Origin: Desulfovibrionales bacterium
Lineage (GTDB): Bacteria; Desulfobacterota; Desulfovibrionia; Desulfovibrionales; Desulfonatronaceae
DNA: 64,000 nucleotides
Reading direction: 5' to 3'
Assembly: GCA_007693505.1 (NCBI GenBank)
Contig: REDL01000077.1
Span: 1-64,000 of the forward strand
Position 1 is the first letter of the stretch. Every line of letters starts with the position of its first letter. The notes below the pieces were generated by a model. It had not been told where the DNA came from and ran no database searches. It worked only from the letters and a program-made list of their open reading frames with translations. The position numbers were made by a program, and so were the translations under genes. Shown here piece by piece: positions 30,118 to 44,856 of this stretch.

Positions 30118-33100
30118 ATGTTCGATACAGATAGTCCTTCACCCCAGAGTTCGGTACCGTCCGCACAGGATTCATCTCCGACCCATTACGTGGCCATTGG
30201 CGCCTCAGCCGGTGGACTTGAGGCCATCGAAGCCTTCTTCCTGAACATGGTGCCGAACAGCGGGCTGGGATTTATCGTGGTGCAGCATCTTTCCCCGGAC
30301 TACAAAAGCCTGATGAAGGAATTGCTGTCCAAAAAAACCCCGATGCCGGTGCATCGGGCCGAGGAGGGCATGCGTGTCAAGGCCGACAACGTTTATCTGA
30401 TACCCCCCAAGAAAAACCTGAGCATTTTCCACGGCAAATTGTTGCTTTCCGAGCAGGATCATACCCGTGGCATCAACCTGCCCATCGACGTTTTCCTCCA
30501 ATCCCTGGCCGAGGACCAAAGCGAGCGCGCGGTGGCGATCATCCTTTCAGGCACAGGTAGCGACGGGATGCGCGGCGTCCGGGTTATCAAGGAATTTGGC
30601 GGGATGATCATGGTGCAAAGCGAGGAAAGTGCCAAGTTCGATGGCATGCCTCGAGCGGCTATTTCCACCGGACTGTGCGACTTCATTCTTCCACCGGAAG
30701 AGATGCCGGGACAATTGTTGAACTGGGTCAAGCATCCTTACGTGAGCAAAGCCGAACGGGCTGAGACGCTTTTCAAGGAGGAAGACGGACTGACCCGGAT
30801 TTTTTCCATCCTGCGTGAACGGTTCAAGGTCGACTTCACGTATTACAAGCCCAGCACGGTCAACCGCCGGATTGAGCGGCGAATGACCATCAATCAGGTC
30901 AAGGATATCAAGGATTACGTCGCCTTCATGGGCAACTACGCCGGAGAGGCTACGGCTCTGTTCCGGGAACTGCTCATTGGTGTGACCAGTTTTTTTCGCG
31001 ACCCGCAAGCATACGATATTCTTGGAAAAAAATGGCTCAAGGAATTGATCAAAAACACGGATGCGCGAGAAGTTCGCTTCTGGGTGGCTGGTTGTTCCAC
31101 CGGGGAGGAAGCCTACAGCCTGGCTATTCTGGCCCGGGAATGTCTGGCGGAACTGGAAGTGAGCCGAGACATCAAGATATTTGCCACGGATATCGATCGG
31201 GACGCCATTCATTTCGCGGCCAACGGTATCTATCCGGAGAGCATCGCCGCGGATGTTTCCCCCCAACGGCTGGCCAAGAACTTCCACAGACGCGATGAAC
31301 ATTTTCAGATTTCCCGAACTATCCGAGAGATGGTGGTCTTTGCCCAGCACAACCTGATCAAGGATCCGCCCTTCACCAATATCAGCTTGATTTCTTGTCG
31401 CAACCTGTTGATCTACCTCCAACCGTCATTGCAGCAGAAAGTTTTTGAGTTCTTCAATTTCTCCTTGAACCCCGCTGGTCTGCTCTTTTTGGGCACCAGT
31501 GAAACCATCGGTGACATGACGGAATTTTTCGCTCCTTTGGATCATAAGTGGAAATTGTATCAATCCAAAGGGCGGATGAAGCGGGTTGGCGGTCCAATGC
31601 ACCTGGCGGTTTCCGACACCCGTGTCCAGGAGGTCAAAGGCCAATTCGCCGCGGCCCGCAAGTCCCTGCAATCTGGTGACCCGGACAAGGTTTTGGAACG
31701 CTTCCTGGACGCCGTCAGTGAAAACTACATTCCTCTGGCTTTGATCGTAAACGAACAGATGGATGTCTTGCACATCATTGGCGACAGTGAAGGATACCTG
31801 CGCCTGCCTTCAGGTAAACCGACCCTGAATGTGACCAAGATGACCACCAGGCAACTTTCCATCCCCATGGCAACCGGCATTCAAAAGGTTTTTCGTCAGG
31901 GCCGGGATGTGCTGTTCCACAATCTGCCCACCTCCTCGGGCCACCTGTCCCGAACCGTCAACCTCCGCTTTGTTCCGCTCCCGACGTCCAAGGGACAGGC
32001 TCCTTTGGTCGCCGTGCTCATCGAGGAGGCAACTGCATATCGTCCCACAGCGAGTGACGAACTGAAAGACACTCCCTGTGATTTGAGCCAAGAGGCGGAG
32101 CAGCGCATCACGGACCTGGAACAGGAACTCCAGTTTTCCCGTGAAAATCTTCAGGCCACCATTGAGGAACTGGAAACTTCCAATGAGGAGCTGCAGGCTA
32201 CCAACGAGGAGCTCGTGGCCAGCAACGAGGAGCTGCAGGCCACCAACGAGGAACTCCAGTCCACCAACGAAGAACTGTACACGGTCAACGCCGAATATCA
32301 GAATCGGATCATTGAGCTGACCGAACTGAATCATGACGTGAACAATTTGCTGGCCGCCTCCATGGTCGGCAAGCTGTTGCTGGACGAGAACCTGGAGATC
32401 AGGCGCTTTTCACCCAAAGTCACCGAACTTTTTCGGTTGATTGACAAGGACATCGGCCGCCCCGTCTCGCACATTGTCCACTTTCTGGAAGACATTGATC
32501 TGCTGGAGATGATCCGCAACGTCCAGGAAAGTTCTGAGATGGTCGAGGCCGAAGTGCGAAGCCAGGGAAAGCGCTGGTATCTGATGCGCATCACCCCCTA
32601 CCTGGTCGGCCCGAATGTTTATTCCGGCACCGTGCTGACCTTTGTGGACATCACCAAATTGAAGACCGTGGAACAGGAACTCCGGGAATCCGAGCAACGC
32701 TTTGCTGCTGTGGTCAACACCTCGCCGGCGCTGATCTGGATGTCCGGTCCGGATAAGATGTGCACATGGTTCAACGATCCCTGGCTGGCCTTCACCGGAA
32801 GAACCCTGCAACAGGAAGTGGGGGACGGATGGGCCGAGGGCATCCACCCCGAGGATCAAGAGCAAAGCCTCCAGCTGTATTCCGGAGCCTTTGACCGCCG
32901 GGAACCTTTTGAAATGGAATACCGGTTACGTCGCCATGACGGTGAATACCGCTGGATTCTGGACCAGGGGCATCCGCGACACTCTCCCGAAGGCAAGTTC
33001 ATTGGCTATATTGGTTCCTGTCTGGATATCACGGAACTGAAAAAGGCCGAAACCGCCCTGCGTGCCGAGCGGATGCAGATTTTCAGCTGGTTTGACGACA

Positions 33101-33405
33101 TCGACGAGTGTATCTATGCCGCTGACAAAAAGACCCACGAAATCCTCTATGCCAACAAGGCCATGGAGCTCTCTTTCGGTGAGGATCTGGTGGGAAAGCC
33201 CTGCCATGAACGAATTCAGGGAACGGATCACCCCTGCGGAATCTGCGCGGACAGAAAATCGGATGACACAACAGATCGGGTTCGGGTAGGGACTTTTCAG
33301 GAAAACCGCAGTGACAGTCAGTTTAAATCCGTGGATAAGATCATTCATTGGCATGATGGACGCGAGGCTTGCTTGCGGTATCTGAAAATAATCGCATCGA
33401 AATAA
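30118..33405 (+). CDS. CheB-CheR-coiled coil-PAS fusion signalling protein
   Basis: A 1095-residue protein. It opens with a CheB methylesterase domain (about 22-205: Ser30 in GASAGG, His57 in VVQHLSP, Asp in GTGSDGMRG). A CheR methyltransferase follows (about 225-490, SAM motif [14 protein letters not shown]). Next is a coiled coil built from [11 protein letters not shown]-type repeats (about 660-740), then three PAS/PAC segments to the end. No receiver or kinase domain is present. Such fusions usually have a C-terminal kinase; here a PAS histidine kinase follows as a separate gene 33 bases on. Role in taxis or other signalling is inferred. Confidence 0.93.
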
Positions 33406-36192: not shown

Positions 36193-36216
36193 GCCGGGCA
36201 TGATTTCCGATTGCCC

Positions 36217-38988
36217 ATGAACGTGGTCTCGCCCCTGGTTCGACGCTGGCGCGGAGCGGCCATTGGCTTTAAGTTTACGGCAATTATGAGCTTCATGCTG
36301 CTGTTGATCCTGCTCACGGCGCTGACCGGAGCCATCGCGTTGCGTACCACCTTGGGACACGTTGAGTCCACCATCATCTCCACCACGGATATCCGTGAAC
36401 TGACCCTGGAGATCGACCGCGAGTTGCAACACGTTCGTCAATTGGAACGGGCCTTCTTTCTCCAATGGCCGCGGATCGGCTTTTCCCAGGCCATGGAGCT
36501 CTACGGTGTACCATCGCAACAACGCATCGCAGGGGTGTACACCCTGACAAACCGTCTGCGGGCCAAGCTGGAAGATTCGCCTGTCAGCCAGGACCTGCGC
36601 AACGCAATCGTGCATCTGGATTTTTATTTAGCCGCGGCGGAACGGTATGCCGACGCCTTTGCCGAAGCCGTGTTGCTGGTTTCCGAACTGGCCAGGGAGA
36701 ATACCGGGCGACAGTCCACACTGTTCGCTCTTGGAGAGATCCTGGTGGACCGTCTGGAAATGCTGCAACACAAAGATCTGCTGCTGATGGTTCGAACCGC
36801 CCAGGTCCAGATTAACCGCTATTTGTCCACCCGTTTGCAATCCGACATGCAAGCAGCATTGAACCTCCTGGAAGATCTTGAACGGCATGTCCAGGTCGTC
36901 CATGACCTCCCTGAGGTTAGTCGATCTGAACTGGTGAATATTCTTCATGCGCACGGTTTCGTGGTCGAGGAAATTCTGGAATTGGATCGGCGGCTGAATG
37001 AAAAGGTCCGGGAGTTCGAACTACGGATTCAGGCCCTTTTGCCTATTTCCGATCAATTGGTGGCCTTGGCCCGCCTGGAGGTGGATCAGGCTCGAAAAGA
37101 TATCGAGAGCACCCGCCGCAACGCCAACTTGTTGCTTTCTATTTCTGTTTTCTGCGCTGTTTTGATGGGCCTCTTTTCGGCTTTGCTTCTGCATCGATCC
37201 ATCACACACAACCTTGCGGTGCTTTCCGCGACGGCGGATCAGCTTCGGGGAGGGAATCTGCGGGCCCGGGCCATCGTGCCAACCGGTGACGAAGTGGGCA
37301 AACTGGCCGTGACCTTCAACAGCATGGCTGAACAGATCGCGGATTTGATGCATGATCTGCGGCAGCGGATGGAAATGAGCCAGACCCGTTTGTTTCAAGG
37401 AATCGAAGCCATTGAAGAGGGCTTCGCGCTCTTTGATAAACACGGACGGCTTGTAACTGCAAACCGAAACGTGGCCCGGATGCTGCCGTCCTTGGAGAAC
37501 GTTCTGCACTCAGGTGTTGCCTACAAGGAATTGATGGACGTCATTTTGCAGGCCGGCCTGATAATTCCCAGTCCGTCAGATGCCCGGGAAGGGCAGGATG
37601 ATCGTGCGGAAGATTGGCGGGGTATCCACCTGGAAATGTTTCGAGAGGGCATGGGCATCGAGGAAGTGCGGCTTGCAAACGACCGGATTCTACAGTTGCG
37701 ATATTTTCGTGCGGAGAACGGGGAGACCGTTGTCCTGATGGGAGACGTCACCGAACGCAGGCAAATGGAAGAGGAACGACTGGAAATGGAGCGCCGGCTT
37801 CTCCATGCTCAAAAGCTGGAGAGCCTGGGGGTGCTCGCTGGGGGTATTGCCCACGATTTCAACAATCTGCTTTCGGCGATGATGGGAAACATGGAACTGG
37901 CCCTGTCTTCGGTCGAATTGGAGGGGGCAGCTCGTCAACGCGTGGAACACGGACTATTGGCAGCACGACGTGCGGCTGATCTGACTCGCCAGATGCTGGC
38001 CTACTCCGGAAAGGGGAAGTTTGACGTCCAATTCATGACTCTCAACGATCTGGTTCAAGATAACATCCATATCTTTCAGACCGCATTGGGCAAAAACATT
38101 CATTTCGTTCTGGACCTTGCCCCGAAATTGCCCTTGATCAGGGCAGACGCCGGGCAGATTCAGCAGGTGATCATGAACCTGATCACCAACGCTTCCGAGG
38201 CCATCGGCGACCGCTCCGGTACCATGACGCTTTCCACCCGGCATGCGTTCTGTGATGCCGCCTGCGTGGAGCGTTCCCGGATCATGGAAAAACCCCAGCC
38301 CGGCTGGTTCGTCTGGCTGGAGGTCCAGGATACCGGGACAGGCATGAGCGAAGATGTACAATCCAGGCTTTTTGACCCGTTTTTCAGCACCAAGTTCACC
38401 GGGCGAGGTCTGGGACTATCCGCTGTTCTGGGAATCGTCCGTGGACATAATGGAACGATCTTCCTGGAAAGCTCTCCGGACTCCGGAACCACCTTCCAGG
38501 TTCTCTTTCCGGTAGCTGCAGGTCCGGCAGTCAAAAACCGGCTCACAGAACCATCACCGATTGATCTTAAAGAGACCAAAACAGGCAACACGCCCTTTCA
38601 CAAGCCTGGAGTGATTCTGGTCGTTGATGACGAGGAAATGGTTCGGAACCTTTCTGCCGAGGCCTTGCATCACCTTGGCTACAAGGTGATCACAGCCAGC
38701 GACGGTCTTGAGGCGGTCCAGGAAGTTCGGGAGAATGCAGGCCGGATAGATTGCGTGATTCTGGATCTGATGATGCCCAGGATGGATGGGGTGACCGCAT
38801 TCATGGAGCTGCGCAAGATTGCACCAAAGCTGCCTGTAGTCCTCTGTTCCGGTTACAGTTCCTGGGAGGTGGAGCAGCGCTTTGCCGGAGATCGTCCGGA
38901 AGCGTTTTTGCAAAAACCCTTTACTATCGACGCGTTGCGAGGCCTGCTTCATGATCTGCTGCAGCACCGTGATAGAGAGCCCAGGTAA
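36217..38988 (+). CDS. Membrane hybrid sensor histidine kinase with C-terminal receiver
   Basis: A 923-residue kinase. Membrane helices lie at about 17-42 and 300-325 and enclose a 260-residue helical sensor region. HAMP follows (about 328-380), then a PAS-like segment (about 395-510). The HisKA domain has GGIAHDFNNLL (phospho-His near 547), and a HATPase domain follows with MNLITNASEAI and GRGLGLSAV. The receiver (about 800-918) starts VILVVDDEEMV with Asp in VILDLMMPRMDG. A TTG six bases upstream is the only alternative start. It probably takes its signal from the lipoprotein encoded just before it. Confidence 0.93.
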   Translation: MNVVSPLVRRWRGAAIGFKFTAIMSFMLLLILLTALTGAIALRTTLGHVESTIISTTDIRELTLEIDRELQHVRQLERAFFLQWPRIGFSQAMELYGVPSQQRIAGVYTLTNRLRAKLEDSPVSQDLRNAIVHLDFYLAAAERYADAFAEAVLLVSELARENTGRQSTLFALGEILVDRLEMLQHKDLLLMVRTAQVQINRYLSTRLQSDMQAALNLLEDLERHVQVVHDLPEVSRSELVNILHAHGFVVEEILELDRRLNEKVREFELRIQALLPISDQLVALARLEVDQARKDIESTRRNANLLLSISVFCAVLMGLFSALLLHRSITHNLAVLSATADQLRGGNLRARAIVPTGDEVGKLAVTFNSMAEQIADLMHDLRQRMEMSQTRLFQGIEAIEEGFALFDKHGRLVTANRNVARMLPSLENVLHSGVAYKELMDVILQAGLIIPSPSDAREGQDDRAEDWRGIHLEMFREGMGIEEVRLANDRILQLRYFRAENGETVVLMGDVTERRQMEEERLEMERRLLHAQKLESLGVLAGGIAHDFNNLLSAMMGNMELALSSVELEGAARQRVEHGLLAARRAADLTRQMLAYSGKGKFDVQFMTLNDLVQDNIHIFQTALGKNIHFVLDLAPKLPLIRADAGQIQQVIMNLITNASEAIGDRSGTMTLSTRHAFCDAACVERSRIMEKPQPGWFVWLEVQDTGTGMSEDVQSRLFDPFFSTKFTGRGLGLSAVLGIVRGHNGTIFLESSPDSGTTFQVLFPVAAGPAVKNRLTEPSPIDLKETKTGNTPFHKPGVILVVDDEEMVRNLSAEALHHLGYKVITASDGLEAVQEVRENAGRIDCVILDLMMPRMDGVTAFMELRKIAPKLPVVLCSGYSSWEVEQRFAGDRPEAFLQKPFTIDALRGLLHDLLQHRDREPR

Positions 38989-39127
38989 GTGCCGTACATT
39001 TCCTGACGCTGCTCTTCCTGGAATCGGTCTCCGAGGCGAAAATACTGAAAAACATCCTCAATAGCTTCGATTCTGATCCGTACACCGATGACCAAAACGA
39101 GAGCACACTCTGACGTTCCCAAGCATT

Positions 39128-40303
39128 ATGCTGTTTGCCCGTAACAACACCCAGGGTACTCCCGGTGAGCGACCAGAACGTGATTTTCATTTTGTCCTAG
39201 AAGGTCTGCAGCCCAACGCTTCCGGTGCCATGGACGGAACCTTGAGCGGTCGACTGGACGTTCGCAACACCGGTGAACTCTGGCGGCGTCTGCATCGAGT
39301 TGCGGGTAAATCTGGGCCAATACTCCTGCGACTGAACGTCTCCAAGCTCGAGTATGTGGATGCCTCCGGTCTGGCGTTGTTTACGGAACTCGAGGAGGTT
39401 TTACGGTCCAAGGGAGGGAAGCTCGAGCTGGTGGGGATGCGCTTGGAGCTGCGTCGCGCTCTTGACCAGTTTCTTGTTCAAAGCCGTGCGGTTGCGGTTC
39501 CACGCAGTCATGGCAATATTCTGGAACGGATCGGGCGTGGAACACAGCGTTTTTTTCACGATGTGCGCGACCTTGTTGGCTTCGTGGGACTGTTTGCTTC
39601 CGGCTTTGGCCAGGCACTGCGCCGGCCGACCAGTATCCGCTGGCGGGATTTCTGGCTGAATTGTGAAACCGTGGGAGCCAACGCCGTGCTGATCATCATG
39701 CTCATCGGCTTTCTGATGGGCCTGATCATCTCCTTTCAATCGGCCATGCCCCTGCGAATGTTCGGCGCGGAAATCTACGTGGCCAGGCTTTTGGGGTTGT
39801 CGATGGTCCGGGAACTCGGTCCGCTGGTTACGGCAATAATCCTTGCCGGGCGCTCTGGAGCCTCCTTTGCGGCCGAACTGGGCACCATGAAGATCAACGA
39901 AGAGCTAAACGCCCTGAACACCATGGGTCTGGACCCGGTCCGACTGCTGGTCGTGCCCCGCATGCTGGCCGCAATGTGCATGACACCGTTGTTGACCATG
40001 GTGTTTATTCTCTTCAGCCTGGTCGGCGGGGCCGTGGTCATGCTCTCCCTGGGATACCCCCTGGTGAGCTATATAAACCAGGTAACTCTTTCCGTTGGGG
40101 TGGGGGATTTGGTCAACGGTCTCTTCAAGTCTCTCGTTTTCAGTGTATTAGTGGGGGGGATCGGCTGCGTTCGTGGTCTACAGACCGGTCAGGGGGCTTG
40201 GGCCGTTGGGGCTGCGACCACCAGTGCAGTTGTCAGCGGGATTGTCCTTATTGCGGTTATGGACGGGATTTTTGCTGTTTTGTATTATGTCTTCCATTAC
40301 TGA
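39128..40303 (+). CDS. mlaE: MlaE-type ABC permease with fused N-terminal STAS domain
   Basis: The permease of an Mla/MCE phospholipid transporter, 391 residues. The first 125 residues form a STAS domain (KLEYVDASGLALF near 77), corresponding to the separate MlaB of E. coli. From about residue 145 the MlaE domain follows, with several helices and the family's LGPLVTAIILAGRSGASFAAELG loop (in part GRSGASFAAELGTMK). It overlaps mlaF by 17 bases. It begins a plus-strand run of six genes with almost no gaps. Confidence 0.94.
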   Translation: MLFARNNTQGTPGERPERDFHFVLEGLQPNASGAMDGTLSGRLDVRNTGELWRRLHRVAGKSGPILLRLNVSKLEYVDASGLALFTELEEVLRSKGGKLELVGMRLELRRALDQFLVQSRAVAVPRSHGNILERIGRGTQRFFHDVRDLVGFVGLFASGFGQALRRPTSIRWRDFWLNCETVGANAVLIIMLIGFLMGLIISFQSAMPLRMFGAEIYVARLLGLSMVRELGPLVTAIILAGRSGASFAAELGTMKINEELNALNTMGLDPVRLLVVPRMLAAMCMTPLLTMVFILFSLVGGAVVMLSLGYPLVSYINQVTLSVGVGDLVNGLFKSLVFSVLVGGIGCVRGLQTGQGAWAVGAATTSAVVSGIVLIAVMDGIFAVLYYVFHY

Positions 40304-41120
40304 AATGACAGCCTGCGGTCTTGATCTCGCCCGCACAGGCTCTCCACTGATTCAGGTTCAGGGCTTGACGGCCGGATATGGTGAACGAATCGTACTGCGT
40401 GATGTCGACCTGGAAGTCTTTGCCGGTGAAATCGTGATTTTTCTGGGCGGCTCGGGGTGTGGCAAAAGCACATTGCTCAAGCAGATGATCGGGTTGGAAC
40501 AGCCCCTGGCTGGCAAGGTGTTGATTACCGGTCAGGACATCCATGCCGCTCGCGGAACCCAGCGCAGGCGCATCCTGAACGGTTTCGGTGTCAGCTATCA
40601 GACAGGGGCTCTTTTCGGCTCCTTGAGTGTTCTGGAAAATGTCCTGTTGCCATTGGAGGAGTGCACGGATCTGCCTGAAACCCTGCGCCTGCGCGTTGCT
40701 CGGATGAAGCTGGCCCAGGTGGGTCTGGCCGGATTTGAAAGCCATGCCCCCGCGGAGCTGAGCGGTGGAATGGTCAAACGGGCGGCCATTGCCAGGGCCA
40801 TGGCCCTTGATCCCTGCATGCTGTTTTTGGACGAACCCTCGGCAGGGTTGGATCCCGTAACTTCGGCGGAACTGGATGCCCTGATTCTGGATCTGGCTCG
40901 GGGTTTGGGCATGACCTTCGTGATTGTCACCCACGAACTGGCCAGTGTATTCGCCATTGCCGACCGGGTCATCATGCTGAGCAAGGCCAAACAGGGAATC
41001 GTGGCCCAGGGCGATCCCCGAGACCTGCGCGACCATGCAACAGATCCACTGGTTAAGGATTTCTTTCATCACCACGTATCAGGAATGCTGAATACGAGCG
41101 CTGAGGCAACCAGCGCCTGA
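40287..41120 (+). CDS. mlaF: MlaF-type ABC transporter ATP-binding protein
   Basis: The ATPase of the lipid transporter, 277 residues. Walker A is LGGSGCGKSTLL, the signature is LSGGMVKRAAIARAM, Walker B is CMLFLDEP and the switch His is in VIVTHELAS. The frame is open upstream to 40173 within mlaE. The ATG at 40287, overlapping the mlaE stop, gives a normal length; ATG 40305 would remove six residues. The short C-terminal tail is consistent with MlaF. It powers lipid movement through MlaE and MlaD. Confidence 0.95.
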   Translation: MSSITEMTACGLDLARTGSPLIQVQGLTAGYGERIVLRDVDLEVFAGEIVIFLGGSGCGKSTLLKQMIGLEQPLAGKVLITGQDIHAARGTQRRRILNGFGVSYQTGALFGSLSVLENVLLPLEECTDLPETLRLRVARMKLAQVGLAGFESHAPAELSGGMVKRAAIARAMALDPCMLFLDEPSAGLDPVTSAELDALILDLARGLGMTFVIVTHELASVFAIADRVIMLSKAKQGIVAQGDPRDLRDHATDPLVKDFFHHHVSGMLNTSAEATSA

Positions 41121-41145
41121 CCCCCTGAACCTTGGTACTGCATCC

Positions 41146-42294
41146 ATGAGCGTCCATACCAATTACGTCAAACTGGGAGCCTTCGTACTGGTCGCCGTTT
41201 TCCTGATCCTTGCCGGATTAATTGTTCTGGGGGGCGGCAAACTCTGGCGAGAACGTATTCTCGTGGAAACCTACCTGGACGAATCCGCCCAAGGACTGGA
41301 GAAGGGAACGATCGTCAAAATGCGCGGAGTCGATGTGGGCAACATTGAGAATATTTCCTTTGTCCATCTCAAGTACCCCGAAGCCTTTCAGGCCGGCCAT
41401 CGGTATGTTTTGGTGGAAATCGGCCTGCAAGCCGAAAAGTTTGGGGATTTCCCTCGGGACAGGTTCAAGGACATATTGACCCAGGAAATCCATAACGGAC
41501 TGCGGATCCGGATTACTCCCCAAGGGCTGACCGGAGCGGCTTTCCTGGAACTGGACTATACCATGCCGCAGCGTGCACCGGCCCTGCCCATCAACTGGAC
41601 ACCCAAGTTTCCGTACATTCCCTCTGCACCTGGGACCATTGCTCGATTTGAGGAAACCTTCGAATCGGTCAGCGTGACGTTGCGAAATTTGGAAGAAGTC
41701 AACGTGAGTGCCCCCTTGGAGCGTTTGGAAAAGCTTCTGATTCTGGCAGGGGACAAGCTCGACGCGTTGGAAGCCGCGCAATTCAGTTCCGAGGCCGTTG
41801 CGTTGTTGCAGGAATTGCGTCAAACTAATGCCAAAGTGTCCCAATTCCTTGGACCTCAGGATGCCCCCCCAGGGCAGGGAGATGTCGTGAATCTGCAATC
41901 CATCTTTCGTGATGTTTCCCAGACCATGGCTGACGTGCGAGTCGTGGCTCAAACAGTGCATACCTGGATCGAGGATGACCAGGGTGGGATGGGTGACCTG
42001 CGCCAGGCAATCGTTGACCTGCGGCGAACCATGGCCATGGCGCCGGAAATGATAGAGGACTTTTCCGTTACAATGGACACAGCTCATGAAAGTTTTCTGC
42101 TTTTTCAGCGGCTCCTGAGCCAGATTCAGTTCCGTCTGGCCACGAAACTGGAGCAACTTGACACCTTGCTGCACAACCTTGGCCGCACAAGTGAAAATCT
42201 TCGGGAAATTACCGAGGACGCCAGAGTGTATCCTTCCAGACTGTTCTTTGGTGAGCCCCCCATCGATTTTCAAGGCCGAGAGCCCCAACCGTGA
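41146..42294 (+). CDS. mlaD: MlaD-type MCE domain protein
   Basis: A 382-residue inner-membrane-anchored MCE protein that forms the periplasmic ring of the lipid transporter. One helix spans about residues 10-32. The MCE domain follows (about 38-150: VETYLDESAQGLEKGTIVKM, GVDVGNI, ITPQGLTGAAFLELDY). The remaining 230 residues are helical and longer than in E. coli MlaD, resembling the extended MCE proteins that form tubes. The next gene overlaps its stop by four bases. Confidence 0.94.
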   Translation: MSVHTNYVKLGAFVLVAVFLILAGLIVLGGGKLWRERILVETYLDESAQGLEKGTIVKMRGVDVGNIENISFVHLKYPEAFQAGHRYVLVEIGLQAEKFGDFPRDRFKDILTQEIHNGLRIRITPQGLTGAAFLELDYTMPQRAPALPINWTPKFPYIPSAPGTIARFEETFESVSVTLRNLEEVNVSAPLERLEKLLILAGDKLDALEAAQFSSEAVALLQELRQTNAKVSQFLGPQDAPPGQGDVVNLQSIFRDVSQTMADVRVVAQTVHTWIEDDQGGMGDLRQAIVDLRRTMAMAPEMIEDFSVTMDTAHESFLLFQRLLSQIQFRLATKLEQLDTLLHNLGRTSENLREITEDARVYPSRLFFGEPPIDFQGREPQP

Positions 42295-42953
42295 AGTATT
42301 GTCCATTTCTTATGCCGGCCATGACGCACTACGCCGTACTTATCGCGACGATCATTTTTTTTCTCGGTTTTTCCGCCCTGTCCGGGTGTGCTTCCCTGAC
42401 CCGTCCTGAGCCGGAACGACGTCACTATCTGCTTCAGGTTCAGCGTCCCGGTCCGGTTTTGGAGCGTCCCATGGAGGCTCCCATCCTGGCTGTGCGCTCC
42501 TTTCGGACCGCTCCGGCAGCCGATTCAAGAGGCATTGTGACCATTCGGTCCGATGGGCTGGTGCAACGGAATTTTTACGATCGCTTTTTTGTGCCTCCAG
42601 GAGAGATGCTTGCAGGACAGTTCCGGATTTGGCTGGGCCAATCCGGACTTTTCAGCCTGGTCACAGGTATGGGCATGTTGATCGAGCCGGACCTGATCCT
42701 GGAGGGGTACATACAAGAACTGCATCAGGATCTGAGTCATGGGAAGCAACGGGCCGTAATGGCCATGCAAATGCTGCTCTTGCGCCCGACCCGCTCCGGA
42801 GACATGGAGGTGGTCGCCCAGTACGATTTCAACCAGATCGTTGATCTGCCGGACACTTCCATTGATTCGCTGGTGAACGGGTGGAATTTGGCCCTGAAAC
42901 ACATCCTCGTCGACCTGGAAAACTCCTTGCGGGACCAATCTTTTCAGATATGA
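42291..42953 (+). CDS. ABC-type transport auxiliary lipoprotein, PqiC-like
   Basis: A 220-residue outer-membrane lipoprotein of the family found with MCE transporters (PqiC/DUF330-like). The lipobox is LSGC with Cys33 (counting from GTG 42291). The start of the mature part, RRHYLLQVQRPGP, and VAQYDFNQIV are typical. GTG 42291 overlaps the mlaD stop by four bases; ATG 42312 or 42321 are alternatives. It probably receives or passes lipids at the outer membrane. Its own stop overlaps the next start (ATGA at 42950-42953). Confidence 0.86.
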   Translation: MKYCPFLMPAMTHYAVLIATIIFFLGFSALSGCASLTRPEPERRHYLLQVQRPGPVLERPMEAPILAVRSFRTAPAADSRGIVTIRSDGLVQRNFYDRFFVPPGEMLAGQFRIWLGQSGLFSLVTGMGMLIEPDLILEGYIQELHQDLSHGKQRAVMAMQMLLLRPTRSGDMEVVAQYDFNQIVDLPDTSIDSLVNGWNLALKHILVDLENSLRDQSFQI

Positions 42954-43657
42954 TTCAGAATAATTCAGAAATAACATTCGGTTTGTCGGAACTGGCCGGC
43001 GAGCATGAAGTGTTGGCTCGGGAATACCTGCGGCTGTTGTTGGCTGCCAAGCGGAAGGATGCGGCCAACCTTGTGGTCAAGGCCGTGGAGCAAGGGGTCC
43101 CTGTCAAGGACGTATACTTGCGGATTTTTCAGCCTGTTCTCTACGAAATCGGCCACCTTTGGCAACACAATGTTGTTTCCGTGGCGCAGGAGCATTACTG
43201 CACTGCGGCAACCCAGTTCACCATGTCCCTGCTGTACCAGTATATTTTTACAGGAAAAAAAACCGGGCGATGTTTTGTGGGCTGTTGCGTCGGGGGAGAA
43301 CTGCATGAAATCGGCATGCGCATGGTCACGGATTTTTTTGAGATGGAAGGCTGGGATACCTACTACATGGGGGCCAGCACCCCGGACGAAGATGTAATTC
43401 GGACCATTGTCGACCAAAAGGCGAACGTGGTGGGCATTTCCGTCACCATGACCTTCCACTTACACCTTGTGGGTCGCTTGATCCTGCGTATTCGCAGTCA
43501 CCCGAAATGCCGCAACGTCAAGATCATGGTCGGTGGATATCCATTTTTGTCCAATCATCAGCTCTGGAGGGGCGTGGGAGCACATGCATTCGCCACGGAC
43601 GCCAGCCAGGCCATTGAGGTGGCCGGTTTTCTTCTGGAAGATGGGAGAGAGTCATGA
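42950..43657 (+). CDS. Stand-alone cobalamin-binding protein with CarH-type photoreceptor motifs
   Basis: A 235-residue soluble protein made of a helical B12-binding cap (about 10-100) and a Rossmann B12-binding domain (about 106-228). The cap has Trp71 followed nine residues later by Glu81-His82, the W-x9-EH motif that shields adenosylcobalamin in CarH-type photoreceptors. The Rossmann domain has Glu117-x-His119-x2-Gly122, the E-x-H-x2-G motif providing the lower axial His. The residue after the Trp, a His in Thermus CarH that ligates cobalt after light, is Gln72 here with His73 next to it. There is no DNA-binding domain. ATGA overlaps link it to the lipoprotein before and the histidine kinase after. 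Confidence 0.85.
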   Translation: MIQNNSEITFGLSELAGEHEVLAREYLRLLLAAKRKDAANLVVKAVEQGVPVKDVYLRIFQPVLYEIGHLWQHNVVSVAQEHYCTAATQFTMSLLYQYIFTGKKTGRCFVGCCVGGELHEIGMRMVTDFFEMEGWDTYYMGASTPDEDVIRTIVDQKANVVGISVTMTFHLHLVGRLILRIRSHPKCRNVKIMVGGYPFLSNHQLWRGVGAHAFATDASQAIEVAGFLLEDGRES

Positions 43658-44856
43658 ACCGAAGCAGCCATCGAGACGTCATCGCGTTGCTGTGTGACGA
43701 CATGGGGGTTGTCCGGGAAGTGCTTGCCGACGAACGTAACCGATTCGAGAACGTTCCAGCGGGATTACCCTTTACGGCATTTGTTCATCCCACTTCACTG
43801 ACCAAAGCTCGAAACTTTTTCAAGGAGATTCAGGAGAAAGGTATTGTCCTGGATTGGGAGCTGGGTGTTGCCACGGCCAATACGGTGACCATTCTTCAGT
43901 TCACTGGAGTCCGTCACGAACGCCAAACGATCATCGTTGGGGCCGAGGATAGCAACTCGGTGATGGAACTCTATGAAGAGATTCTCAGCATGCACGGGGA
44001 CCAGATCACCCTGCTCCGGTCCGAGGTCAAGCGACGCAAGGAGTTGGCTGACGAACTGCAGCTGATGAACCTTCAGGGGTATGAAGAGGTTACCCGGCTG
44101 AACAACGAGTTGGTAACCATGCAGAGGGATCTCGTCAAAAAGACTCGTGAGTTGGAAGCCCTGAATCAGCAGAAAAACCTCTTTCTGGGCATCGCGGCCC
44201 ACGACCTGCGTAATCCCATCGGCAATATCCTGAACTTGAGTCAACTGCTTCAGGGCGATCTTCACGGCAAGCTCGATGAAGATGCTACGCTGTATTTCCG
44301 ATTGATCGATTCAAGCTGCGGTTTCCTGCTCCAACTGATCTCGGATCTGTTGGATTTTTCCCAAATCGAGTCCGGAAAACTGGTCTTGGATCTGGAAACC
44401 GTGGACCTGGAGGCCTTGGTGTCCCAACAGACATCCTATGCGCGAACCTCGGCCGAGGCCAAAGGAGTAGGGGTGTCCTTCTCTGCCCTGGGAGAGGGTC
44501 CATTCACCACCCAGGGGGATCGTGGGCGCCTGACACAGGTGGTGGACAACCTGATCAGCAATGCCGTCAAGTTCAGCAGCTCGGAGAGCACTATCGAGGT
44601 TTTTCTGAATCGGAAAGGGAAAAAAATGCTGTTTACGGTCCAGGACCATGGACCTGGCATCAGCCCGGAAGATCAAGCCAAGCTTTTCCATCCATTTGCC
44701 AAGACCTCCGTCCGTCCCACCGCCGGAGAACGAAGCACGGGACTGGGACTGAGCATCGTCAAACGCATAGTCGATGCCCATGGCGGTGAAATTGAGCTGG
44801 AGAGCAGCGTTGGCCGGGGAACGAGGCTACGGGTATGCCTCCCGGCGCAGGAGTAA
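43654..44856 (+). CDS. Histidine kinase coupled to the cobalamin-binding protein
   Basis: A 400-residue soluble kinase. The N-terminal 110 residues look like a divergent PAS domain (FTAFVHPTSLTKARNFFKEI). A coiled coil spans about 115-172, then HisKA with phospho-His183 in IAAHDLRNPIGN. The HATPase domain has DNLISNAVKFS, DHGPGIS and STGLGLSIVK. Its start overlaps the B12-protein stop by four bases, so the two are made together and probably form a sensor-kinase complex. No response regulator lies within reach in the window, so the output is unknown. Confidence 0.9.
   Translation: MNRSSHRDVIALLCDDMGVVREVLADERNRFENVPAGLPFTAFVHPTSLTKARNFFKEIQEKGIVLDWELGVATANTVTILQFTGVRHERQTIIVGAEDSNSVMELYEEILSMHGDQITLLRSEVKRRKELADELQLMNLQGYEEVTRLNNELVTMQRDLVKKTRELEALNQQKNLFLGIAAHDLRNPIGNILNLSQLLQGDLHGKLDEDATLYFRLIDSSCGFLLQLISDLLDFSQIESGKLVLDLETVDLEALVSQQTSYARTSAEAKGVGVSFSALGEGPFTTQGDRGRLTQVVDNLISNAVKFSSSESTIEVFLNRKGKKMLFTVQDHGPGISPEDQAKLFHPFAKTSVRPTAGERSTGLGLSIVKRIVDAHGGEIELESSVGRGTRLRVCLPAQE

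Follow-up and report, generated by a model that had tools for sequence, protein, structure and literature searches.

A gene pair in a Desulfovibrionales genome probably encodes a two-protein light (or adenosylcobalamin, AdoCbl) sensor, in which a B12-binding protein acts in trans on the PAS-helix region of a separate histidine kinase; the probability of this reading is put at roughly 0.6. The reading builds on direct observations, namely the gene pair, the pocket signature, the clade of the B12 protein, a constant PAS-helix region ahead of varied outputs, natural fusions and a gene for an AdoCbl-forming enzyme. Throughout, the window is the whole stretch of DNA that was analysed, 64,000 nucleotides of contig REDL01000077.1.

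The initial annotation had described a 235-residue B12 protein whose gene overlaps by ATGA with that of a histidine kinase, and both open reading frames were recovered as described, at 42950-43657 (235 aa) and 43654-44856 (400 aa). The residues it had named (Trp71, Gln72, His73, Glu81-His82 and Glu117-Leu-His119-x2-Gly122) lie where it had placed them. It had also claimed that the B12 protein lacks a DNA-binding domain, and Pfam and NCBIfam indeed place none in it, with ~22 residues ahead of the B12 domain; the MerR-type N-terminal domain that characterises CarH is missing from both searches. The features of the region are as follows.

39128-40303, + strand: mlaE, Mla-type lipid transport
Start near 40287, end 41120, + strand: mlaF, Mla-type lipid transport
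41146-42294, + strand: mlaD, Mla-type lipid transport
42291-42953, + strand: lipoprotein gene of the Mla-type operon, in ATGA overlap with the B12 gene
42950..43657, + strand: B12 protein, 235 aa (ORF; Pfam domains; clade support 97)
B12 protein residues 23-95: B12-binding_2, four-helix cap (Pfam, 51.9 bits)
43151..43162, + strand: GxxW signature element, Gly68-Trp71 (alignment; signature from PMC11796333)
43163-43165, + strand: Gln72, at the position of the CarH light-state His (alignment)
43190..43195, + strand: EH signature element, Glu81-His82 (alignment)
43202..43216, + strand: T85-A-A-T88-Q89, helix after EH (order-level class-1 conservation)
B12 protein residues 110-216: B12-binding, Rossmann domain (Pfam, 70.6 bits)
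43295..43306, + strand: GxxH signature element, Gly116-His119, lower axial Co ligand (alignment)
43370..43384, + strand: GxxxP signature element, Gly141-Pro145 (alignment)
43654..44856, + strand: histidine kinase, 400 aa, intact, ATGA-coupled to the B12 gene (ORF, Pfam)
43675..43950, + strand: PAS-fold domain, kinase residues ~8-99 (AlphaFold model)
44008..44175, + strand: long helix joining PAS to HisKA, residues 119-174 (model)
44098..44166, + strand: helix motif LNNELVTMQRDLVKKTRELEALN, common to kinase, hybrid and GGDEF partners and to B12-kinase fusions
Kinase residues 173-241: HisKA (Pfam)
Kinase residues 288-399: HATPase_c (Pfam)

Judged by its signature, the B12 protein has a complete CarH-type AdoCbl pocket. 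Its whole motif reads ExHx2G-x41-SxT-x28-GG, against a published B12-binding motif of D/ExHx2G/P-x41-SxT/V-x22-27-GG (PMC9304148). The light signature of GxxW, EH, GxxH and GxxxP has been calibrated by experiment with controls, and in full it separated photoreceptors from a light-blind domain (PMC11796333). All four elements are present in the window protein (G68-W71, E81-H82, G116-H119 and G141-P145), as is the combination of W-EH plus E/DxH that marks a photocobilin-type B12 domain. In CarH, the EH pair caps the adenosyl group.

Relatives of the B12 protein were found in 30 of 199 genomes of the order (whole-protein search, E < 1e-20), and W-x9-EH and ExHx2G recur in these loci, with one exception seen (Gly for Glu81 in L045). 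Three classes of B12 proteins are visible, of which class 1, that of the window, is marked by WQ and ELHE. Class 1 as assembled here comprises 15 genomes of the order plus 80 loci fetched out of 273 confirmed in named genomes. It extends, in many cases as metagenome bins, to Chloroflexota, Pseudomonadota, Bacteroidota, Bacillota, Planctomycetota, Acidobacteriota, Gemmatimonadota, Verrucomicrobiota, Armatimonadota, one Lokiarchaeota contig and others. A 114-row tree puts class 1 on one side of a branch with an SH-aLRT support of 97 (class 2, 93; class 3, 98), and the reference sequences fall outside the classes, several on long branches, so that their exact placement is unsure. The clade of the window protein is distinct, with support, from CarH, the solved photocobilins and the corrinoid methyltransferase carriers. 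Within the window's order, family f5 groups in this tree with a Desulfovibrio metagenome bin, from which the host is probably a sulfate reducer akin to Desulfovibrionales.

Conservation within class 1 centres on the pocket. Across all 95 rows, Trp71, His82 and His119 are invariant (95/95 each) and Glu81 is kept in 94/95, with 80 of these rows biased at those columns because they came from a scan with peptide patterns including EH[YF]CTA or ELHE. The other 15 rows (set A3) came from the whole-protein search within the order and are free of that pattern bias; in them W71, H82, E117 and H119 never vary, while at least 90% keep E81. On this alignment, the pocket motifs of the window protein are not due to chance.

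The nearest solved sequences are all AdoCbl photoreceptors, namely SasPcob (8j2w/x; E 1e-33, profile), the CarH-like CtMerR (8jbs) and AbPcob (8j2y), ahead of the corrinoid carriers, and a model of a close relative, L054, superposes on SasPcob with Z 27.6 and an rmsd of 1.7 over 208 residues. The photocobilins (SasPcob, AbDPcob) and photoglobin-B12 proteins share both the B12 fold and the signature with the window protein, and most members of its clade resemble photocobilins in having the B12 domain C-terminal and a globin N-terminal. The window protein differs in having no fused globin and in having a separate PAS-helix kinase as partner; its clade also branches apart from SasPcob (support 97, with long reference branches). 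Photocobilins that stand alone have been shown to control a diguanylate cyclase in trans (PMC10979010), and action on an enzyme in trans is what is proposed for the window protein. Zhang 2024 refers to Schneider for the proposal that photoglobin-B12 proteins form a light-sensing bundle, and part of the gene-neighbourhood picture may already have been published in the photoglobin paper of 2022. The openly licensed literature yielded no spectrum, binding assay, light response or kinase assay for any protein of the clade.

With CarH/LitR the window protein has in common W-x9-EH, ExHx2G-x41-SxT and the fold (the L054 model against TtCarH, whose comparison sequence comes from plasmid pTT27, gives a Z of about 21). 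It differs in having no MerR DNA-binding domain, in having Gln for the light-state His, and in an output by phosphorylation. The CarH family model had no match in 99 genomes of the phylum.

The light state of CarH is bis-His, with the second His directly following Trp. Gln72 takes that place in the window protein, and the initial annotation had proposed altered photochemistry from Gln72 and the neighbouring His73. This part of the proposal was not supported: Gln follows Trp in 87/95 class-1 rows, and His73 occurs in just 5/95 and is not conserved. SasPcob likewise has Gln after Trp (PMC11796333), and its light state is ligated by water or hydroxide (PMC10979010). As Gln72 is the family norm and His73 is not, a non-bis-His light state is likely in the window protein too, though it would not be new.

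The partner is by all its boxes a histidine kinase (H, N, G1 and G2 all found), and its N-terminus was assigned by structure prediction, Pfam giving no match in the first 165 residues. The AlphaFold model of residues 1-175 (pLDDT 83.5) shows a PAS fold followed by the helix 119-174, and comparison with known structures (Foldseek, VIA-align) returned PAS domains, with a best Z of 11.4. PAS folds are common. Among the Foldseek matches are the N-Q-PAS1 region of PpsR (4l9g) and PpsR in its complex with AppA (4hh3_A). A PAS profile searched against PDB sequences up to E = 10 matched just three seemingly unrelated proteins, and neither PpsR nor any solved PAS domain was among them. The helix carries the motif LNNELxxxQREL, and a loose pattern for it matches a downstream signalling ORF at 87/98 loci, including those of class 2 and of PAS-less Paenibacillus kinases. 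In L075 and L110, two of the fusions, the pattern matches between the B12 domain and the kinase, and some partners, mostly in Paenibacillus, retain the helix alone.

This arrangement resembles AppA-PpsR and AerR-CrtJ, in which a CarH-fold sensor works in trans and its partner combines a PAS domain at the N-terminus with a long helix. The SCHIC domain of AppA, which has the CarH fold, contacts PpsR on the long helix that follows the first PAS, and AerR-CrtJ has been modelled in the same way, with helix four of the helical cap as the contact (PMC9144470). The L054 model matches both sensors (AerR 7te2, Z 21.1; AppA SCHIC 4hh3_C, Z 20.5). However, the window partner is a kinase (HisKA, HATPase_c), and those of relatives also a cyclase, rather than an HTH repressor, and it has no detectable sequence kinship with those partners. 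With PpsR absent from the sequence matches of the PAS profile, the likeness is one of fold and arrangement.

A candidate for the kinase-facing surface is T85-A-A-T88-Q89, since in AppA/AerR a helix of the bundle is turned towards the linker of PpsR/CrtJ; from its position after EH, this helix would correspond to the AerR/AppA contact helix. T85, A86, T88 and Q89 are invariant in the 15 order-level class-1 sequences, a set not selected on these letters, and are not kept in CarH or the photocobilins.

Signalling through a separate kinase, the core of the original two-protein reading, is supported by the genomic record: the gene pair, whose search in relatives had been suggested, recurs in the order and across phyla, the PAS-helix was found only beside such B12 genes, and fusions occur. 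The supported part is a CarH-type AdoCbl sensor domain that would act via a kinase and not on DNA, without the special photochemistry. With a profile of the kinase N-terminus, a PAS-helix gene was detected 3' of the B12 gene in 65/80 named loci, at a distance of no more than 150 bp in 62 of these. Among 199 genomes of the order, 14/14 full-length profile matches lie directly downstream of a class-1 B12 gene, and in a sample of 297 genomes of the phylum 2/2 matches adjoin a B12 gene. The presence of the PAS-helix beside B12 genes is partly built in, because the profile was made from neighbours of B12 genes, but its absence everywhere else in the searched genomes is not. B12 genes without a PAS partner also occur (5/7 in the phylum sample at the threshold used, and the class-1 gene of G108 in the order). 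Behind the PAS-helix, outputs vary between kinase, hybrid kinase, PAS-kinase and GGDEF, and natural fusions of B12 domain and kinase are found at L075, L110 and L132. Mirror-tree distance correlations among B12 domain, PAS and kinase core are about equal (0.64, 0.67 and 0.61), so coevolution does not single out the PAS as the contact.

Under the proposed mechanism, the B12 protein would bind AdoCbl in a base-off/His-on form via His119, and Trp71, Glu81 and His82 would form the cap over the adenosyl group. Green or blue light would cleave the Co-C bond, the adenosyl group would leave, and its loss would move the helix bearing Glu81-His82. The bis-His state of CarH is out of reach with Gln72, so a water- or hydroxo-cobalamin would be left in the lit protein. 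The B12 protein is expected to dock on the PAS domain of the kinase and/or the following LNNEL helix, where movement of the Glu81-His82 helix would alter the packing of the kinase helix and so change autophosphorylation; an unlinked response regulator would then pass the signal on. Docking on the PAS-helix, switched by the light-moved Glu81-His82 helix, is favoured by the AppA-PpsR arrangement, the structural matches of L054 and the precedent of photocobilins acting in trans. From cofactor binding and the light response to the docking site, the direction of the effect and its target, these steps are what we infer from the comparisons above. No response regulator lies beside the pair within the window.

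The same proteins could instead report AdoCbl supply, or the ratio of AdoCbl to hydroxocobalamin and hence oxygen, with the AdoCbl-bound and apo forms setting kinase activity and light having no physiological part; this is possible but unlikely. The capping residues would recognise AdoCbl whether or not it is lit, and the genome has a CobO-type adenosyltransferase gene (cobO), so that AdoCbl can be made in this organism, although a PF01923-type enzyme is absent. Many named records come from sediment, sulfur-cycle and anaerobic lineages, and the genes that flank the pair in the window include none recognised as light-related. The genome appears to belong to an order of anaerobic sulfate reducers, in which a use for light is not obvious, a point against the main reading. 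On the other hand, relatives also occur in Adhaeribacter and Paenibacillus, which live in air and at surfaces, and most are fused to a phycobilisome-type globin, which points to a role for light. The family also retains the full photoreceptor signature that excluded the light-blind domain (PMC11796333).

The globin evidence can be traced in some detail. The N-terminal domain of L054 matches the Pfam Phycobilisome family at 33.5 bits (cut-off 22.2) and superposes on the phycobilisome subunit fold with Z 18.0 and an rmsd of 2.0 over 127 residues. Such a globin is fused N-terminally to the B12 domain in 74 loci, and separate globin genes adjoin several other globin-less B12 members. The window B12 ORF has no globin match, but elsewhere the genome encodes, as a separate protein, a globin like those fused to class-1 proteins (G000:C65:95708-96142; L144:6673-7143), not near the B12-kinase pair and next to a gene that looks EVE-like by sequence. 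Within the order, the B12 sensor is present in 12/15 genomes with a separate globin and 18/184 without (Fisher p 5e-9, a value that ignores kinship). Heme oxygenase (PF01126) had no match in the window's genome.

The operon setting raises another alternative, namely that the lipid-transport operon or a membrane partner is the target of the B12 protein, with the kinase playing no part; this is judged very unlikely. The Mla-type set (39128..42953) lies directly upstream of the B12 gene, with overlaps or short gaps from mlaE to the kinase, and the B12 gene is translationally coupled to it; two more species of the genus keep the Mla-B12-kinase order, one extra membrane-protein gene preceding the B12 gene, and in a different family G006 carries Mla genes a short way downstream. 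However, G030 keeps the pair and the extra membrane-protein gene though most Mla genes are lost, most other loci examined in the order show no complete Mla set beside the pair, and B12-kinase fusions exist. Seen more widely, the window holds a hybrid PAS histidine kinase followed by the Mla-type operon coupled to the pair (36211-42953), an order kept in G015 and G010. Further upstream, 30118-33405 encodes a 1095-aa protein whose start resembles a CheB/CheR-type methylesterase fusion, ahead of other sensory genes. The extra gene of the three genus relatives, a ~290-aa membrane protein with no Pfam match (L033:9966-10844, L034:7519-8415 and L035:10115-11095), was not found in the window.

A role of the B12 protein as corrinoid methyl carrier, with the kinase beside it by chance, can practically be dismissed: carriers such as MtbC, MtgC and 4JGI share its two-domain fold and lower His motif, and MtbC is its best NCBIfam match by E-value, but it reaches just 56.8 bits there against a cut-off of 350, 4JGI has Phe for Trp and no EH cap where the window protein has both, no methyltransferase gene or context was recognised at the locus, and signalling genes accompany the B12 gene again and again in many phyla. 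Membership of the motifs in a carrier family, named at the outset as one finding that would refute the initial reading, is thus not indicated by the scores or by the comparison with 4JGI. Scores for the other carriers (MtgC, 53 bits against 370; pyl_corrinoid, 53 against 215) and for CarH (56.7 against 400) are similarly low, and the near-equality of the CarH and MtbC scores, both far under their cut-offs, places the window protein in neither family.

Experimental knowledge of B12 photoreception comes chiefly from repressors that bind DNA, from AerR and from a handful of photocobilins. The recurrence of the same pair in many distant bacteria suggests that B12 light sensing may extend far past the gene-repressor CarH. 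A CarH-fold sensor clade across many phyla is linked genetically to one receiver, PAS plus a conserved helix, with interchangeable outputs; this is a real and widespread variant within B12 photoreceptor signalling rather than a new category. A broader conjecture, offered tentatively and still open to considerable doubt, is a general docking rule, in which bacterial trans-acting AdoCbl photosensors have the PAS-LNNEL helix as their standard receiver ahead of kinases, hybrid kinases and diguanylate cyclases, following the logic of AppA on the PpsR linker helix. Here it might serve a sensor of the Mla operon, maybe with the unlinked globin as a third subunit, through which an anaerobic sulfate reducer would tune its envelope or signalling to light. 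Signal transfer by stand-alone B12 photoreceptors becomes directly testable with two small proteins, and a modular green-light switch for kinases or cyclases is on offer. Genetics could be permitted by genes on Azospirillum plasmids.

Related genes are found on plasmids of two Azospirillum species, with the B12-kinase neighbourhood annotated in A. thermophilum and a B12 gene found in A. brasilense Sp7. On a plasmid of Ilyobacter polytropus (L138:2443-4486), the B12 gene overlaps a GGDEF gene and is annotated merely as 'cobalamin-dependent protein'. The contig binned as Lokiarchaeota carries a class-1 B12 gene with a PAS-helix kinase (L117:5593-8296). In Adhaeribacter, the partner is a PAS-helix protein of ~170 aa without an output domain (L060:6696-7196, L065:6658-7170 and L100:6638-7165), followed 3' at L100 by a gene that resembles a KaiC-like ATPase in sequence.

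The other two classes show arrangements of their own. Class 2 proteins (L047-L052) have WE and mostly YHQIG or FHQIG, and are paired with kinases that have a different N-terminal domain and the same NNEL-type linker helix; at L048, a globin gene lies 3' of the kinase gene. Class 3 proteins (L025, L027 and L029-L032) are 376-423 aa long with a globin-type N-terminus, and the gene next to that of L030 encodes a GGDEF protein.
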